Shown: piece after piece, positions 38,747 to 47,553 of the stretch
Position numbering within the stretch: position 1 is the first letter of the stretch
Layout: the number at the start of each line of letters is the position of its first letter
NCBI GenBank assembly: GCA_947473045.1
Contig: CANJCO010000017.1
Coordinates: 1 to 64,000 of the forward strand
Direction of reading: 5' to 3'
DNA length: 64,000 nucleotides
Origin: Myxococcales bacterium
Lineage (GTDB): Bacteria; Myxococcota_A; Polyangia; Polyangiales; Polyangiaceae
Notes under the pieces: model-generated
Databases searched by the model: none
Told to the model about the DNA's origin: nothing
Seen by the model: the letters and a program-made list of their open reading frames with translations, nothing else
Translations under genes and position numbers: made by a program

Positions 38747-39967
38747 ATGTCGAAGTCGAGCGCGCTGCTTTCGTCGGCCCAAAAATATCTCTACGCGAAC
38801 TACAAACCTGCGCCGGTCGTGTTCGAGCACGGCAGCGGCGTGGTGCTCGTCGATGTCGACGGCAAGCGCTACCTCGATTTCGCCGCCGGCGTAGCGGTGA
38901 GCGCGGTCGGGCACGCGCATCCGGCGCTCGTTCGCGCGATCGCAGACCAGGCGGGCAAACAGCTGCACGTATCGAACTACTATTACAACGACCGCAACAT
39001 CGAGCTCGCCGAGGCGCTGTGCACGCGCACCGGCTACGCGCGCGCGTTTTTCTGCAACTCGGGCACAGAGGCCAACGAGGCCATGCTCAAGCTCGCGCGG
39101 CACCACTTTTATGCGCGCGGCGACGCGCGGCGCCAACGCATCGTCGCGTTTCACAACGCGTTTCACGGGCGCACCATGGGCGCGCTGTCGGTCACGGGCA
39201 CCCCCAAATACCGCGAAGGCTTCGGCGACTTCGGCGCGGTGACGCACGTCCCCTACGGCGATCTCGAGGCGGTGAAGGCTGCCATGGGCGACGACGTGGC
39301 CGCGGTCATCGTCGAGCCCGTGCAGGGCGAAGGCGGCGTGAACGTGTCGCCGATGGGCTTCTTCGGCGGGCTGCGCGCGGCCTGCGATGCCGCCGGCGCG
39401 CTGCTGCTCGTCGACGAAGTGCAAACGGGCATCGGGCGGCTCGGACGCTTCCTCGGACACGACGGATGGTGCGCGCGGGGCGACGCCGTTGCGCTCGCCA
39501 AGGGGCTCGGAGGCGGCGTGCCGATCGGCGCGATGCTCACGACCGAGGCCCTCGCCGGCGCGCTGCCGGCAGGCAAACACGGCACCACCTTCGGCGGAAA
39601 TCCGCTGGCGTGCGCGGCTTCGCTTGCCGTGCTGGGCATCATCGATCGCGAGGGCCTCATCGAGGGCGCACGCGCGCGAGGCGAGGCCCTCCACGCCATG
39701 CTCGCCGGCCTCGTCGCGGACTTGCCCAACGTCTGCGAGAGCGCGCGCGGCGACGGACTGCTGCGCGGCCTCGTGCTTCGCGAGGGCTTCGTGGCCCGTG
39801 ATATTCTGCCGCACGTGCTCGAGGCCGGCGTGCTGCTGACGGCGGCCGGCGATCGCGTCCTGCGCTTTTCGCCGCCGCTCATCGTCACCGAGGCCGAGCT
39901 GGCGCAGGGCGTCGCGGCGTTGCGAACCGTGCTCGCGGCCGTGCCGCACGTCCCGCCGCCGGTCTGA
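38747..39967 (+). CDS. argD: Acetylornithine aminotransferase (class III PLP aminotransferase)
   Basis: 406 residues. Typical motifs are FAAGVAVSAVGHAHPALVRA, FFCNSGTEANEAMLKLAR, FHNAFHGRTMGALSVTG, VIVEPVQGEGGVN, LLVDEVQTGIGRLG and ALAKGLGGGVPIGA with K252 as the PLP-binding Lys, then HGTTFGGNPLAC. It transaminates N-acetylglutamate semialdehyde in arginine synthesis; related succinylornithine and succinyldiaminopimelate transaminases cannot be excluded. No other arg gene is in the window. The ATG at 38747 begins the conserved region. The ATPase-like gene starts 4 bp after the stop. Confidence 0.9.
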   Translation: MSKSSALLSSAQKYLYANYKPAPVVFEHGSGVVLVDVDGKRYLDFAAGVAVSAVGHAHPALVRAIADQAGKQLHVSNYYYNDRNIELAEALCTRTGYARAFFCNSGTEANEAMLKLARHHFYARGDARRQRIVAFHNAFHGRTMGALSVTGTPKYREGFGDFGAVTHVPYGDLEAVKAAMGDDVAAVIVEPVQGEGGVNVSPMGFFGGLRAACDAAGALLLVDEVQTGIGRLGRFLGHDGWCARGDAVALAKGLGGGVPIGAMLTTEALAGALPAGKHGTTFGGNPLACAASLAVLGIIDREGLIEGARARGEALHAMLAGLVADLPNVCESARGDGLLRGLVLREGFVARDILPHVLEAGVLLTAAGDRVLRFSPPLIVTEAELAQGVAALRTVLAAVPHVPPPV

Positions 39968-39971
39968 TCGC

Positions 39972-42233
39972 GTGGTGTCGAGCGCCCCATCCTGCCCGGC
40001 ATGCGCGCGGCCCGTCGACGCGCTCCGAGCGGGAGAGGTGGCGATTCTGGGCGGAAAATTCGTCTACTTTTGCAACCGGGCGTGCAAGGTCGACTATCTG
40101 CAATCGCTGCGTCCGGGCGTGCTCTCGGCGGAAGTGCAGACCGCCGAACCTCCCCCCACCGCGCCGCGTTCGCCGCCCCCAAAAGCCACCTCGGAGACGC
40201 CTCAACCACGCGCCGATCGGGCTGAAGACGCCGTTGCAGTCGAGGACTCCGAGCCTGCGAGCGTGCCGCTCCTCGAAGCCCTCGCGGACGACCCGCCGGT
40301 CGATGAGGTCGACAGCTTCGAACACGAGCCCCTGCCGCCGTCGCAGCTCGAGAGCGAGCGGAGCGCCGAAGAGCCCCGTGAGCGCGTCGGCGTTCCGCGC
40401 ATCCTTTCTGCGGGCGCCGTCGGTGCCGGGCTGCTCTCGCTCGGGCTGCCGCTCGCCGGAGGCGCTGCGCCGGGGGCACGCACCGCGCTCGCGCTCGGCG
40501 CAATCGCCTTCGCCATGCTGCGACAGGCAACGGGCACGCGCACGCACTTCCGCGAAGGCTGGCTCACGGTTGCGGCGCTCGCGGGATGCGGCGCCTCGCT
40601 GGCGTGGTCGCAGGCGCGGATCAGTCCCCACGCGAGCACCATCGCGGCGCTGACCGGCCTCGCGGCGGCGGCCGCGGTCGTCGTGCGCGAGTTGGTGGAG
40701 CGCGAGCGAAGGCCCGTCGAAGAAGCGCGTTCGCGCCTTGCGGCGGAGCTCACGATCACCGCGAGGGTCATCACCGCGGAGGGCTCGCGCGACGTGGACC
40801 ACGCCGAAGTGCGAGCCGGAGAGGTCGTGCTCCTCGTGGCCGGCGACGTCGCTCCGGTCGACGGCGTCGTGGCGTCGGGCGAGGCCACCATCGTGCCGTG
40901 GATCGACGCGCCGCTTGAAATCGTCGTGCGGGAAGGAGAGGCCGTGCTCGCCGGAGCCGCGTTGCTCGCCGGCTCCCTGCGCCTGACCACCACCCGGACC
41001 GGCGCCGATCGCGGCCTCGCCCGCCTCGCCCTCTCGGCGGGCTCCGGCGTCGACGTGGCTGCGCCGCTGCCGAGACTCGCCAGGCAAATCGCGACCCGTG
41101 GCGCGCCTGCGACGGCGCTGCTCGCGGGCGCCGCTGCGCTCGCAATATCGTCGTCGCTTTCAATGGCGATCGCCGTCGCCAGCGCGACGCTCCTGGCGCT
41201 CTCCGCCGAAGCCACCGCAGCCATTGTCGCGGCGTCTCACGCGCGCGCGCACCTCAGGGCCCAACAGCGCAGCGGCATCATCTACAAAGACGCCGCCGCG
41301 TTCGATCGCGCCGGGCGCGTCGACATCGCCGTAGCGTGCGCGCGGGGAACGCTGCTTCTGGGCGAGCCCGAGATTGTAAGCGTCGACGGCTACGGAGCGT
41401 GGGACACCGCCCGGGTCCTGTCGCTCGCGGCGGCCCTCGCGAACGGATCGACCCACCCGTTCGCCCTCGCGATCGCGAGGGCGGCGCGCGCCGGCGGCGT
41501 GAAGGTCGCGAACGTGAGAAACACGATCCACGACGGCGCCGGCGTCACGGCGCTCGACGCCGCCGGAGACCGTATCGTGCTCGGGCGCCGCGCGTTTTTG
41601 CTCAGCGAGCGCGTGGGCGTCGCAGCCGCAGATGCCCGGGTGGGCGACCTCGAAGCTCAGGGCCGAAGCGCGCTGCTGCTGGCTTGCGCCGGCAAGATCG
41701 TCGGACTGGTCGCGCTTCAGGACGGCCTGCGAGCCGGCGCACGCGCCGCCGTACAGCGGCTGCTGGACGCGCACATCGAGCCGGTCATGCTCTCGGGCGA
41801 GTCTCGCGAGACCTGCGAGACGATCGGCGCGGCGCTCGACATCGAACACGTGCGCCCCGAGGTCATGGCAGCCGATCGCGGCGCCGAAGTCCGCGCGCTC
41901 GCCGACGGCGGAAGTGTCGTCGCGGTCATCGGTCGCGCGCCGGACGACGACTCCGCGCTCGGCGCGGCCGACGTGTCGCTGGCGCTCGGCGCGGCCGGTA
42001 GCGCGCCCGGAGAGTGGTCGGTCGCGCTCGCGAGCGATGACGTGCGCGACGCCGTGCTCGCGCTTACCATCCCGCGCACCGCGTCTGAAATCGCGCGGCG
42101 GGCGCTGATGCTCGGACTCGTTCCAGGCGTGGCGTGCGCGCTCTCGCTGTCGCTCGGCTGGGCGCCGCTGTGGCTGGGTCCCCTCGCCGGTGTCGTGGGC
42201 ACCCTCGCTGCCGCGCTCTACGCCCGCGACTGA
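39972..42233 (+). CDS. Catalytically degenerate P1B-type (heavy-metal) ATPase homologue with N-terminal YHS/TRASH-like domain
   Basis: 753 residues, no frame break. Residues 8-43 carry four Cys (C8, C11, C34, C38; CPAC and FCNRAC) like YHS/TRASH metal-binding domains, followed by an acidic, Pro-rich linker (~55-140). The rest follows a P1B ATPase: four membrane helices (~141-241), A domain (RAGEVVLLVAGDVAPVDGVV), helices ~378-420, N domain with the kept HP (H495-P496), P domain and two final helices. The catalytic motifs are changed: DKTGT reads CARGT at 456-460 (Asp to Cys); A-domain TGE is absent; CPC reads SSL; TGD reads SGE (608-610); GDGxND reads GRAPDD (654-659). It cannot work by normal phosphorylation. 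Perhaps a metal sensor or regulatory pseudoenzyme; function unknown. Confidence 0.85.
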   Translation: MVSSAPSCPACARPVDALRAGEVAILGGKFVYFCNRACKVDYLQSLRPGVLSAEVQTAEPPPTAPRSPPPKATSETPQPRADRAEDAVAVEDSEPASVPLLEALADDPPVDEVDSFEHEPLPPSQLESERSAEEPRERVGVPRILSAGAVGAGLLSLGLPLAGGAAPGARTALALGAIAFAMLRQATGTRTHFREGWLTVAALAGCGASLAWSQARISPHASTIAALTGLAAAAAVVVRELVERERRPVEEARSRLAAELTITARVITAEGSRDVDHAEVRAGEVVLLVAGDVAPVDGVVASGEATIVPWIDAPLEIVVREGEAVLAGAALLAGSLRLTTTRTGADRGLARLALSAGSGVDVAAPLPRLARQIATRGAPATALLAGAAALAISSSLSMAIAVASATLLALSAEATAAIVAASHARAHLRAQQRSGIIYKDAAAFDRAGRVDIAVACARGTLLLGEPEIVSVDGYGAWDTARVLSLAAALANGSTHPFALAIARAARAGGVKVANVRNTIHDGAGVTALDAAGDRIVLGRRAFLLSERVGVAAADARVGDLEAQGRSALLLACAGKIVGLVALQDGLRAGARAAVQRLLDAHIEPVMLSGESRETCETIGAALDIEHVRPEVMAADRGAEVRALADGGSVVAVIGRAPDDDSALGAADVSLALGAAGSAPGEWSVALASDDVRDAVLALTIPRTASEIARRALMLGLVPGVACALSLSLGWAPLWLGPLAGVVGTLAAALYARD

Positions 42234-42246
42234 GCAGGCCGGGCGA

Positions 42247-42462
42247 TCAGACGGGCGCCGATGGCGCGGCCTCGAAGCCGGCTCGGGCGATGGCCTCGCA
42301 CACACGAGAAAGGTCGATTTGCGCTGAATCGAGGTCGAAACTCGCCTGCCCGACAGCGACGTCCACGTTGGTCACGCCCGCCTGACGGCCCAGGACCGCC
42401 CGCACCGCGACGACGCAACCGCCGCAGCTCATCCCCTGAATATCGATCGCAACACGGGTCAT
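42247..42462 (-). CDS. HMA-domain copper-binding protein (CopZ-like)
   Basis: 71 residues forming one heavy-metal-associated domain: VAIDIQGMSCGGCVVAVRAVL with the CxxC copper site, then the strand VDVAVGQASFDLD and the final helix CEAIARAGFEA. Small soluble HMA proteins carry Cu(I) in the cytoplasm to copper ATPases. Here it converges on the catalytically degenerate ATPase homologue 13 bp away. Confidence 0.9.
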   Translation of the reverse strand: MTRVAIDIQGMSCGGCVVAVRAVLGRQAGVTNVDVAVGQASFDLDSAQIDLSRVCEAIARAGFEAAPSAPV

Positions 42463-42591: not shown

Positions 42592-45500
42592 ATGACCGAC
42601 GTCCACCAACCGACCATTCCCACCCGCGACGTGCTCGAGCGACGCATCGGCTCGACGCTCCGGGGCAAATGGAAAGTAGACGCGCTGCTCGGCGCAGGCG
42701 GCATGGCCGCGGTGTATGCAGCCACGCATCGCAACGGACAACGCGCGGCGCTGAAGATCATGCACCCGGCACTCGCCGCTGACGATCGCCTCATCGAACG
42801 CTTCGTCAGCGAAGGCTACATCGCAAACAAGGTGTCGCACGCGTCGTGCGTCGCGGTGCTCGACGACGACATCACAGACGACGGCGCGCCCTTTTTGATC
42901 ATGGAGCTGCTCGAGGGCGAGACGGTTCGCGATTTCTGGAAGCGAACCGGGCGTCGCCTACCGATCGGCCAGGTCTTGCAGATCGCCGAGCGCGTACTCG
43001 ACTGCCTCGAGGCCTGCCACGGCGCGGGCATCGTTCACCGCGATCTGAAGCCCGCGAACGTTTACGTGACCACCGACGGCCGCATCAAGCTGCTCGACTT
43101 CGGCGTGGCGCTTGTCGAGGGCGGCGATGCCACGCCGGGCTTTGCCATGGGCACCCCCGCGTACATGGCGCCCGAGCAAGCCAAGGGGCGCGCCGAAAAA
43201 ATCGATCACCGCGTCGACATTTTTTCAATGGGCGCGTGCATGTATGCGCTCGCCTCAGGCAAGCGCGTCCACCGCGCGAAGACCGAGCAGGAATCGCTCA
43301 GGCTGGCGGCGACGACCCCCGCCCGCTCCGTGTCGACGGTGGCGCCTGACCTGCCGCTCGAGGTCATCAACCTCATCGATCGCGCCCTTTCGTGGAACGC
43401 CCACGATCGCTTCGCCTCGGCGCGCGAAATGAAGGTGGCCGTCACCTCCGCCCTTACGCGCGTGCAGCGCGTTTCGAACCGCGCGCCGTCGATGCGACCG
43501 GAGAGCTTCGACGACGACGAGGACTACACGCCCATGCACGGCACGCCCGTCGTCGATGCGACCAGCGCCGAGCGCGCCCGCGAGGGACTCGCGACGTTCG
43601 GCGACGCCGTTCAGCTCGGTGCACGCGAAGGCATCGACGCCCCGGAGGTGCGCGCCCTGCTCGACGGCGCGTTCGAGCAGCTCACCGCGTGGCTTTCGTA
43701 TCACTCGCCGCTCGGCGTGATCGTGCGACCATCCGGCCTGTATGCGTTCGGCAAGAGCGTGTGGCACCCCTCCGACGAGCTCGATTCGATCGCTCGCGAC
43801 CTGTTCGCCGCCGGCGTACGCAGCCTGCGGTTGAGCGTTGGCGTGCAGAGCGACGAGCTGCTGCGCCTGTCGCGACTGCTGGTCGATCGCCGCTCGCTGA
43901 CGCCAAACGAGGACCTCGGCACGGCCATCTGGGATCTCGCGCTGACCCACGTGCGCGCCGAGGTGGCGACGGGGTTCCGCATGGGAACCGCCGCGGAGCG
44001 CGAGGCGCACGGCGCTGCGTTCGAGGAGCTCGACGCGCTCGTCTCGCTCGCCCAGCGCAAATACGCCTTTAGCCTTTCGAACCCCAGCCTGCGCGCGCCG
44101 CGCCACCGGTCACCACTCGCGTTCGACGACGTCGCGCGATCGGCAGGCGGCGCGCAGCTCGAAGGCCCGAGCGATCTGCTCGCCGAGCGTCACCTCGACC
44201 TGTGCGCCGACGCGATGCTCGACGCCGCCCGCCACAACGAGGTTGCCGTCGTGCTCGACGCGCTTCGGCGCTCGTCGATTCGAGCGCTCTCACAGCGGCG
44301 GCACACTTCGGTGATGGCCTCGGCGCAGGGCCTGTCACGCCGCCTACGCGAGCTGGTCGGTCCGGCCGACGCTCCGCGTGTCGAAGGTGCGATCAGCCGC
44401 GCTCTGTTTGGCAAACACGCCTTGGTCGCCGCGCTCGCAAACCTCGACGAGCAAACCAAGCCGGTGCTCGACGTAACGCTTGGCGAGCTCGCGCCAGAAG
44501 ACGCGGTCGCGGCGTTGATCGCGCTGCGCCGCCCGTTGTCCGAGACAGGCGCAGCGATGCTGCTCGACACTTGCGGCGAAGCGTTGCGCGGTCGCGAGAG
44601 CGAAGTCGTGCAGCGCGCGACCCGATCTTCGAGCGGAGTGCGACGCGCCGTCGCCAGCTGGCTGTCGTCGACGGGGCACGGTTCGCTCGCGAGCTCCCTG
44701 GCTGCCGTCGCGCCGATGCCGCTCGCCCATGCGGTGCGCCCCGGTGCGTGCGCCGACGAAGCGCTGATCGTGGCGCTGCGCGACCTCGTGACGATGGCCG
44801 ATGCCCGCCAGCAGGCGACACCTGCCTACGAGCGCGCGATTGCCGATGCCGCCGCGGCGGTCGCTCGCATGCCGACCGCGAGCGGGACGCTGTCGATCGA
44901 GTTTGCGGACGGCGTCGTGTTCATCAACGGCGCACTCGCGCAGCTGTCCGCCGATGGCTTCGCCGCGGCTCAAACCCTCGCAGCGTCGCTCGTGCGCCGC
45001 GATCGGTCGCGGGCTATCAGTCTCCCGCGCGACGCTTCGGGCGACGACTTCCGCACCTTCGGAGTCGATCTCGCCACCACCGGCGGCGGCTCGCGCATTC
45101 GCCTCTCTGCGCTCTCAGACGTCGCGCGCCTGCAGGGCCTCGAGGCCGACCGCCCAACCCTCGAACAGCGTGTGACGCGAGCGTACTGCTCCGCCGTGCT
45201 TTCGCTCCGCGCGCTCCCGGCGGTTTCGCGCGCAAACCTGCCCGCAGCCCGCAGAGCGCTCGTGCACGCGGCCCAGGAACTGGTCGACTGCTCGGAGCCG
45301 ATGACCCCCGCGTTTTTGGGCCCCGCCTATCAGACCGTCGATACGAGCAACGCAGGGCGCGCGGCCTCGACCTGCCTGCTCGCGATCGCGGCTGCGCGGG
45401 AGTCGACGACTGACGTTTCGGCTCTGCTCGACGTCGCTCTCGGCGCGCTGCTCAGCGATGTGAGCCGCACGGCCACGCTCGTTGGTATGGGCTGGGCCGA

Positions 45501-47553
45501 CGCGGAGCGCGGCGCGCCGATCGTGATCGCGCGGGAGGCCGCGAACCTGCGGGGCGGCCGTCCCGCCCGCGAGACAGGCGCGCCGCTGCTCGCATCCCGC
45601 ATCGTGCGCGCGGCGAGGCGGCTCGTCGATTTGCGTGCGGACGATCCGCAGCTCATCCTCGATGAAGTGATCGCGGCCATCGCTCGCGATCTGCTCGACC
45701 CTGCAGACGTGAGCGCGCTGCGCGCGGTCGTCGCCGGACTCGGCGTACTGCCTGCCGGCACGATCGTCGAGCTGTCTACGGGCGAAAGCGCCGAGGTGCT
45801 CGAAGCAAACGAAGAAAACGGGCTCAGGCCGCGCGTTCGCATCACGGCCGATGCGTCAGGTCAGGCGGTTCAAGGCGGCCCCAGCCTCGAGCTCGACTCC
45901 GAAGACGAGATCGTCATTCGCCGCGCGCTCACGATCGACGGATGGAAATCCGGGCGATCTCAGGCGCCGCCAGTGTTGCCGCCCAAGCCCGAACCGAAGA
46001 CACCCATAAGCCCGATCGCCGCCGCACCGCGGGTACAGACCTCCGTCGAGCGGCCCGCACCGACGGCGAAGGGCGATCTCAACACGACGCCGCTGCCCCA
46101 CGTTCTCGCCTACATGCTCGACCGCGAGCTGACCGGCACGGTCGAAATCAGCGAGGCCGACGGCGCCTCGCATCTCGTCGCGTTTTCCCGCGGCGCGCCG
46201 ATCCGAGCGGTGACGGGCCGCCTGCTCGCGCCCCTCGGCGCCTACCTCGTTTCAGCGGGTCTCCTCACCGACGCCGACGCGGCGAACGCCGTCACGCGCG
46301 CCAAGCTCGCGCGAACGCCACTCGGTCAATACCTGGTAGCAAACGACCTGCTGGCGCGCGTCGATCTGCTGCGGGCCCTCGAGCTTCAGGTGCGGCGCAA
46401 GCTCGCGGCGCTGGCGAACGTAGCGAACGGCGCGACGTTTGCATTCTACAAGCATGTCGACCTGCTCGGCGCGCCGGCCGGCCCGGAGACGCTCGAGGTC
46501 GATCCGCTCGACGCTATTTTCGATTGCGTGCGCGTCTGGCGCGATCAGGATCGCATGCGCGCGACGCTCGCAGCCTATGCCGACGTGCCGCTCGCGCTGC
46601 ACGCCGACTCGCGCATCGACCTCATCGATCTGACGACCGCGGAGCGCGCCCTGCTCGCAGAGCTGCGCGCGGTTCCGCGAACCCTCGCCCAGTTGTGGGA
46701 GCGCCCTGTCGCCGACAGCGCCGTCATTCTTTCGACCGCGTACATGCTCGTCATCACGCGCCAGATCCGGACCGACGCGCAGGCAAAACCCCCTCTTGGC
46801 GGACGCGCGACGAGCGAGTCAGAAGAGCGCCCGTCCACCTTCCCGGATCGCCCGTCGAGCGTGTTCGCGGTGCCACCGCTGCCCGTGCGAAGCGCAGCGC
46901 CGCCGCCGTTGCCGCCCCGCGCCGCCGCGAGGCCTGCGTCGCCATCGCAGCGCATCGCCGCGCCTCCCGCCTCCGCCCGTGCGCCCGCGCTCCCCCAGCG
47001 CGTCATCGCGCCGTCGATCAGCGCGCCGTCGATGCCCGAGGCTGCGCCATCTTCAAGGCGTCCGGAGGCTCCCCCGCCGAACGCTTCGATCCAGAGGCCC
47101 GCGCCTGTCGTTCCGAAAGACTCCGAGCCGCCGTCGTCGCGCTCGCTGGGCACCAAGCCTCCGCGAAAGCGCAACGAAGCCACTGTGCGCGAGGTCGAAA
47201 AGGCCGATCAGGCGCTCGGGCGCAAAGACATCGCAAACGCAGAGCGCGTGGCGTTGAAGGCGCAGCTCAACGACAGTCGCGACCCCGATCTCAACGCGCT
47301 CGTCATTTGGATTCGAGCGCTGGCGGGAAGTTTGAAGGTGCCTTCGGCGATCGAGGAAATGAACCGCATCATCGTCGATTCGCCCGAGTGCACGCGCGCG
47401 CGGCTGTATCGCGGCAAGCTCTACAAGCGCGACAACAAGCTCAAGGAGGCCGCCGCCGACTTTGAGTACGTCTGCGCAGTAGAGCCCGCCCAGAAGGAAG
47501 CCAGCAACGAGCTGAAGCTTCTGCAGCTGACCATGAAGCTCGGCCGACGCTGA
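42592..47553 (+). CDS. Very large Ser/Thr protein kinase with PATAN/DUF4388-like and TPR C-terminal regions
   Basis: 1,653 residues. A complete Hanks kinase lies at ~25-300: LLGAGGMAAVY, K55, HRD 149-151, DFG 169-171, APE 193-195. A central region of ~850 residues is Ala/Arg/Leu-rich and helical without a family I can name. At ~1160-1340 a PATAN/DUF4388-type domain is likely (GDLNTTPLPHVLAYMLDRELTGTVEIS, in parts; LVAFSRGAPIRAV). A Pro-rich linker (~1400-1530) ends in TPR-like repeats (ARLYRGKLYKRDNKLKEAAADFEYV). No membrane segment is seen. PATAN domains recur in gliding and polarity regulators, so a role in cell organisation is possible (inference). Confidence 0.85.
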   Translation: MTDVHQPTIPTRDVLERRIGSTLRGKWKVDALLGAGGMAAVYAATHRNGQRAALKIMHPALAADDRLIERFVSEGYIANKVSHASCVAVLDDDITDDGAPFLIMELLEGETVRDFWKRTGRRLPIGQVLQIAERVLDCLEACHGAGIVHRDLKPANVYVTTDGRIKLLDFGVALVEGGDATPGFAMGTPAYMAPEQAKGRAEKIDHRVDIFSMGACMYALASGKRVHRAKTEQESLRLAATTPARSVSTVAPDLPLEVINLIDRALSWNAHDRFASAREMKVAVTSALTRVQRVSNRAPSMRPESFDDDEDYTPMHGTPVVDATSAERAREGLATFGDAVQLGAREGIDAPEVRALLDGAFEQLTAWLSYHSPLGVIVRPSGLYAFGKSVWHPSDELDSIARDLFAAGVRSLRLSVGVQSDELLRLSRLLVDRRSLTPNEDLGTAIWDLALTHVRAEVATGFRMGTAAEREAHGAAFEELDALVSLAQRKYAFSLSNPSLRAPRHRSPLAFDDVARSAGGAQLEGPSDLLAERHLDLCADAMLDAARHNEVAVVLDALRRSSIRALSQRRHTSVMASAQGLSRRLRELVGPADAPRVEGAISRALFGKHALVAALANLDEQTKPVLDVTLGELAPEDAVAALIALRRPLSETGAAMLLDTCGEALRGRESEVVQRATRSSSGVRRAVASWLSSTGHGSLASSLAAVAPMPLAHAVRPGACADEALIVALRDLVTMADARQQATPAYERAIADAAAAVARMPTASGTLSIEFADGVVFINGALAQLSADGFAAAQTLAASLVRRDRSRAISLPRDASGDDFRTFGVDLATTGGGSRIRLSALSDVARLQGLEADRPTLEQRVTRAYCSAVLSLRALPAVSRANLPAARRALVHAAQELVDCSEPMTPAFLGPAYQTVDTSNAGRAASTCLLAIAAARESTTDVSALLDVALGALLSDVSRTATLVGMGWADAERGAPIVIAREAANLRGGRPARETGAPLLASRIVRAARRLVDLRADDPQLILDEVIAAIARDLLDPADVSALRAVVAGLGVLPAGTIVELSTGESAEVLEANEENGLRPRVRITADASGQAVQGGPSLELDSEDEIVIRRALTIDGWKSGRSQAPPVLPPKPEPKTPISPIAAAPRVQTSVERPAPTAKGDLNTTPLPHVLAYMLDRELTGTVEISEADGASHLVAFSRGAPIRAVTGRLLAPLGAYLVSAGLLTDADAANAVTRAKLARTPLGQYLVANDLLARVDLLRALELQVRRKLAALANVANGATFAFYKHVDLLGAPAGPETLEVDPLDAIFDCVRVWRDQDRMRATLAAYADVPLALHADSRIDLIDLTTAERALLAELRAVPRTLAQLWERPVADSAVILSTAYMLVITRQIRTDAQAKPPLGGRATSESEERPSTFPDRPSSVFAVPPLPVRSAAPPPLPPRAAARPASPSQRIAAPPASARAPALPQRVIAPSISAPSMPEAAPSSRRPEAPPPNASIQRPAPVVPKDSEPPSSRSLGTKPPRKRNEATVREVEKADQALGRKDIANAERVALKAQLNDSRDPDLNALVIWIRALAGSLKVPSAIEEMNRIIVDSPECTRARLYRGKLYKRDNKLKEAAADFEYVCAVEPAQKEASNELKLLQLTMKLGRR

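Follow-up and report, generated by a model that had tools for sequence, protein, structure and literature searches.

The window, a stretch of 64,000 nucleotides from a Myxococcales bacterium, carries at positions 39,972–42,233 (plus strand) an open reading frame that runs from a GTG start codon at 39,972 to a stop codon ending at 42,233 and encodes a 753-amino-acid protein with the fold of a P1B-type ATPase, here called X. Its start codon lies 5 bp 3' of the stop codon of argD (38,747–39,967, plus strand), the gene for acetylornithine aminotransferase (TIGR00707, 1.3e-130, above the cut-off), and both genes probably belong to one operon. Convergent to X, a CopZ-like HMA protein of 71 amino acids is encoded on the minus strand (42,247–42,462; PF00403, 6.7e-10). 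Further downstream lies a large ORF of 1,653 amino acids (42,592–47,553), the start of which resembles a Ser/Thr protein kinase. A sequence-only reading of the window had described X as a 753-codon frame without stops and with the codon use of its neighbours. The ORF and its translation bear out the former, and the GC content at the three codon positions (0.78/0.58/0.84) is close to that of argD (0.75/0.49/0.87).

The Pfam families E1-E2_ATPase (1.1e-8) and Hydrolase (HAD hydrolase, 1.1e-10) match X, as does the NCBIfam model of heavy-metal P-type ATPases (TIGR01525, 1e-51), the latter scoring 176 bits where the cut-off is 346. We modelled X with AlphaFold2 (AF2) using a 40-member alignment (mean pLDDT 89). 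The model comprises an N-terminal domain, the A, P and N domains and eight long helices positioned as in P1B pumps, and its top PDB match in Foldseek was CopA (7r0g, E 1.2e-33); both agree with the eight-helix P1B layout that had been proposed before. When the X family profile was compared with the PDB, CopA again ranked first (3j08, 4e-82). That is, profile matches, order-wide homologues and the predicted structure place X within the P-type ATPase fold as a P1B homologue. In the model, the membrane helices MA, MB, M1 and M2 (residues 136–245; 40,377–40,706) are followed by the A domain (residues 260–345; 40,749–41,006), whose TGE motif is altered (Glu to Ala at 313), and by M3–M4 (residues 365–430; 41,064–41,261), where SAE at 411–413 stands in the place of CPC. 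The P domain reads CARGT for DKTGT at the phosphorylation motif (residues 456–460; 41,337–41,351) and, further on, SGE (608–610) for TGD and GRAPDD (654–659) for GDGxND (41,793–41,948). The nucleotide pocket of the N domain has Ala at residue 490, HP at 495–496 and GxG at 522–524 (41,439–41,543), and M5–M6 form the final membrane helix pair (residues 694–752; 42,051–42,227; all on the plus strand). The motifs of the window (CARGT, SAE, SGE, GRAPDD and HP) had been read correctly.

To compare catalytic sites, we used about 115 non-redundant X homologues from Polyangiales, 107 of which cover these sites, and 19 canonical pumps. The phosphorylated aspartate, the defining feature of P-type ATPases, was found in none of the 112 X members scored, the commonest replacements being CARGT, CSRGT and SARGT. 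The Glu of TGE was absent as well (0/107), with Ala, Ser or Gly in all 109 members that have a residue at that position, as were CPC (0/107) and the conserved Lys of P1B pumps (0/107, mostly Arg instead), while the Mg-site Asp of GDGxND was present in 1 of 107 members. All of these sites are retained in the canonical pumps, with the single exception of one that lacks the first Cys of CPC. X therefore has none of the features of an active P1B pump, namely the phospho-Asp, the TGE Glu, the Mg-site Asp and Lys, and CPC. The earlier statement that all catalytic motifs are lost holds for the phospho-Asp, the TGE Glu and CPC, but goes slightly too far for other sites: most relatives retain the Asp of TGD (D in 77 and E in 26 of 113 members), the second Asp of GDGxND (D659) is present in 111 of 113 members, and for the most part DKTGT still has its GT. 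The losses are common to the order-wide family.

X homologues occur in Polyangiales (Myxococcota), among them Labilithrix, Sorangium, Polyangium and Minicystis, and finished genomes of isolates carry them too, for example those of Sorangium So ce26 and Minicystis rosea. Matches above about 180 bits were obtained in about 44 genomes (59 relatives searched; weaker matches were ordinary pumps) and a match at E 1e-45 in 86 of the 116 genomes of the order, both counts being lower bounds, as the divergent members L266 (family f2) and L268 (family f12) fell below the thresholds. These two extend X to at least two further taxonomic families. Both come from small-genome families, are highly divergent and have a barely recognisable P-domain motif (L266:4,804–6,921 and L268:4,331–6,994, minus strand); L052, L220 and L223 are very divergent, too. 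Class-wide and phylum-wide samples from outside the order contained no X member among the readable loci: top matches reached at most about 160 bits, and the readable ones carried DKTGT and CPC (L129 from the same order and L191 from the class, in which DKTGT was not readable, were set aside). In a phylogenetic tree, all 53 sampled X members were located on one side of a branch with an SH-aLRT of 100, apart from the 19 canonical pumps; the quick method and the long branches of L052, L220 and L223 limit the fine placement within this tree.

Close pairs of X genes gave dN/dS values of 0.06–0.38, similar to those of the adjacent argD in the same pairs, and the value near 1 expected of a decaying gene was not seen among them. 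The search for orthologues with an intact DKTGT had the same outcome inside the X clade, where all 112 scored members lack it. Judged by alignments and substitution rates, X is a maintained pseudoenzyme under purifying selection. Since the losses are common to a monophyletic clade and dN/dS is low, the shared catalytic loss is older than the diversification of Polyangiales, X having been retained ever since. The proposal that X is a maintained pseudoenzyme and not a fresh pseudogene is therefore strongly supported, by monophyly, by the absence of phospho-Asp and TGE Glu from all 107 members, by intact frames and by a dN/dS far below 1. A decaying pseudogene or a sequencing artefact could explain why nearly all hallmark motifs are changed, and our script found no single open frame in the copy of a Sorangium MAG (L078). 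However, identical losses recur with open frames in about 110 genomes including finished isolates, and non-catalytic residues are invariant; together with the dN/dS values, this clade-wide conservation rules out decay or error for X, to which we give practically no credence.

The N-terminus of X (residues ~8–38; 39,993–40,085, plus strand) had been described as a four-Cys YHS/TRASH-like domain. C8, C11, C34 and C38 are retained in 102–103 of the 104 X members covering them. The Pfam family TRASH matched 8 of 40 members (best 2.3e-5), and zf-FCS likewise 8 of 40. In the AF2 model, the domain is a small unit of two strands and one helix, for which Foldseek listed L24e zinc ribbons first and also the TRASH structure 2das, none of them with E <0.001. 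Cys conservation, Pfam matches and fold matches of low significance all speak for the earlier description, and sequence and model point to a four-Cys site of the TRASH/L24e type that would bind metal. A CcoI-type domain (PF12156) was rejected as the N-terminus of X, as just 1 of 40 members matched it (E 0.29). L24e is described as consisting of one TRASH domain, with four Cys as its metal ligands; YHS/TRASH domains are found on Cu-ATPases too, and an adenylyl cyclase of M. phlei has a YHS domain that probably senses copper (PMC4626032).

In the nucleotide pocket, the GxG glycines G522 and G524 are retained in 111–112 of 112 X members, the pocket Glu (490) in 96 of 113 and the His (495) in 78 of 113. 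The HP pair reported as kept is present in the window; its His is missing from many relatives. The full set of Glu, His and both glycines occurs in 69 of 112 members, and Glu490, Ala in the window, is lost in the window's own genus. In ATP7B, the GxG glycines are close to ATP, and the H1069Q exchange by itself does not abolish ATP binding (PMC3203118). Given the losses of Glu490 and His495, some X members may bind nucleotide less well or no longer at all. The mean identity of the N domain (0.44) and of P2 (0.51) in X is comparable to that in canonical pumps (0.42 and 0.55). In contrast, the membrane regions overall reach 0.22–0.31 in X versus 0.44–0.61 in canonical pumps, with a mean pairwise identity of 22% versus 44% for MA–M2 and 31% versus 61% for M5–M6. 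We searched the helices in the family alignment for conserved Cys, Met, His, Asn or Tyr and found none, and residual membrane transport by X was rejected on the grounds that its helices hold no conserved ligands. The near-invariant residues specific to X (R516, R540, E561, D599, R612 and E616) are charged and cytosolic. Since the N domain and P2 are conserved as in pumps while the helices drop, we infer that X is an anchored cytosolic device rather than a pump.

We then looked at gene neighbourhoods in 83 non-redundant loci with both flanks. In 51 of them, argD or argD-argF is located upstream on the same strand as X, argD being the upstream gene in most loci of the window's own family; in 18, argH (usually followed by lysA) is directly downstream, in two argH is divergent from X, and 12 show neither arrangement. 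That is, X is linked to arginine genes in 71 of 83 loci. The order X-argH-lysA is found even in L266, which is very divergent and belongs to another taxonomic family. As a rough guide, chance alone would place an arg gene beside X in far fewer than 1% of arrangements, an estimate of our own, not computed by a tool, from about ten arg genes, two neighbour slots and about 5,000 genes. In six genomes without the argD type of arrangement, argF is far from X, and in five of them it is beside argD, again without X; X thus accompanies two separate arginine units. These may go back to two recruitments or to one broken ancestral cluster, and they are not certainly independent. Arginine genes are missing beside X in family f6, in part of f3 and in two loci of the window's own family (L068 and L084). 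In L068, X is directly preceded by an RlmI-like methyltransferase gene, which in the window stands two genes before argD; argD seems to have departed there while X stayed. In two f6 loci (L215 and L219), the gene beside X looks by eye like frr, which encodes the ribosome recycling factor. In the window's own genome, argH is away from X and beside argF (L248 on contig C47), and it shares only about 40% identity with the argH found behind X in other families, which suggests that argH was replaced in this genome. It is on gene neighbourhood alone that we infer a role of X in arginine synthesis.

Two kinds of metal-related genes are also found next to X. The CopZ-like HMA gene facing X is real, as its PF00403 match confirms, but it adjoins X in the window's own genus and L089 only and is probably not part of the conserved X unit. 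The suggestions made on sequence grounds, that X goes with this gene or with a true CopA, are weakened by the lack of conserved adjacency and by the absence of a conserved metal ligand from the helices, and a functional pair of X and the CopZ-like gene was rejected. A Fur-family gene lies just downstream of X in 32 non-redundant loci (for example L046:3,800–4,282), often behind X loci of the argD-argF type and convergent in Sorangium. Among the loci with both flanks, it accompanies X in 26 of 83, versus 71 of 83 for arginine genes, and two f8 members have fur by X and no arginine gene in the available flank. In NCBIfam, these Fur-family genes score best with the models for iron Fur, at values under the cut-off. 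We saw no such gene beside X in the X-argH families, nor in the window's own clade, whose fur orthologue is located elsewhere. In the window, the CopZ-like gene stands where the Fur-family gene stands in other loci.

How could a P-type ATPase fold serve without its catalytic residues? A single recruitment, at the base of Polyangiales or earlier, would have put the fold to a job that requires no phosphorylation or metal transport. X would reside in the inner membrane with its TRASH domain in the cytosol, where it would bind a transition metal, and its N domain would still bind adenine nucleotide in most members. Unable to cycle, the head of A, N and P domains would respond to metal and/or nucleotide by a change of shape or of partners, and in this way serve arginine (ornithine) synthesis as a sensor-regulator or scaffold. 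We hold it to be about an even bet that X, a maintained pseudo-ATPase, is anchored in the membrane and linked to arginine synthesis as a metal- or nucleotide-responsive regulator or scaffold. The narrower proposal, that these order-wide non-catalytic P-type ATPases are membrane regulators which read metal through the TRASH domain and adenine nucleotide through the N domain and control arginine synthesis, is put forward tentatively.

Several alternatives have to be weighed against the responsive regulator or scaffold. X could sense nothing and act as a pure anchor whose head docks ArgD, ArgF, ArgH or other proteins at the membrane. The charged, cytosolic, near-invariant residues would fit this, those of the N and P domains being the supposed docking sites; unconserved helices are what an anchor predicts, and the linkage to two different arginine gene sets is in keeping with it. 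However, the near-perfect retention of the TRASH Cys and of the GxG loop exceeds the needs of an anchor, and we consider this explanation unlikely. It is similarly doubtful that X regulates metal homeostasis by sensing copper, zinc or iron, in concert with either the Fur-family regulator or genuine P1B pumps. Its P1B ancestry and its TRASH domain would fit, as would the 32 loci with a Fur-family gene, including the two f8 members, and the CopZ-like gene in the Fur position of the window. But Fur linkage is confined to part of the family, being unseen with X-argH and in the window's own clade, and the arginine linkage is wider; on this reading, the arginine genes would be incidental operon mates.

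Passive passage of a metal or an arginine-related compound through the membrane part, as in a channel or transporter without ATP-driven cycling, is very improbable. All eight helices are kept in the AF2 model, but they offer no conserved metal-ligand residue and their identity is about half that of canonical pumps.

If correct, regulation by X would put the P-type fold to a new use and connect metal or energy state with amino-acid synthesis in a new way, and the constant company of arginine genes provides a direct hypothesis that is testable in culturable myxobacteria. In this clade, the phospho-Asp is lost, the rest is under selection and conservation has shifted away from the membrane core and towards the cytosolic head, making it a natural experiment on further uses of the fold. 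X also risks being labelled a heavy-metal pump in annotations, and surveys of metal resistance would then be misled.

In the one open-access full-text library searched, we found no P-type ATPase pseudoenzyme family. With pseudoenzyme families in general, X shares a clade-wide loss of catalysis with purifying selection on the remainder. With TRASH/YHS domains (ribosomal L24e, the ZMYM5 TRASH domain 2das and the YHS domain of the M. phlei adenylyl cyclase), it shares the fold of the four-Cys metal site and the spacing C-x2-C-x22-C-x3-C; it differs by a family-specific VDPLRA signature, the fold matches being statistically weak. The closest comparison is with the P1B copper pumps (CopA; 7r0g, 3j08, 3rfu; TIGR01525/TIGR01511). 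X has their fold, their A/P/N domain order and eight helices, the GxG of the N domain, mostly the HP and the last Asp of GDGxND. Unlike them, it lacks the phospho-Asp, TGE, the Mg Asp, the conserved Lys and CPC, scores about half the TIGR01525 cut-off, carries a TRASH-like N-terminus instead of HMA and is located in a context of arginine synthesis. By sequence, X is a member of the P1B fold family that stands apart from the working pumps.
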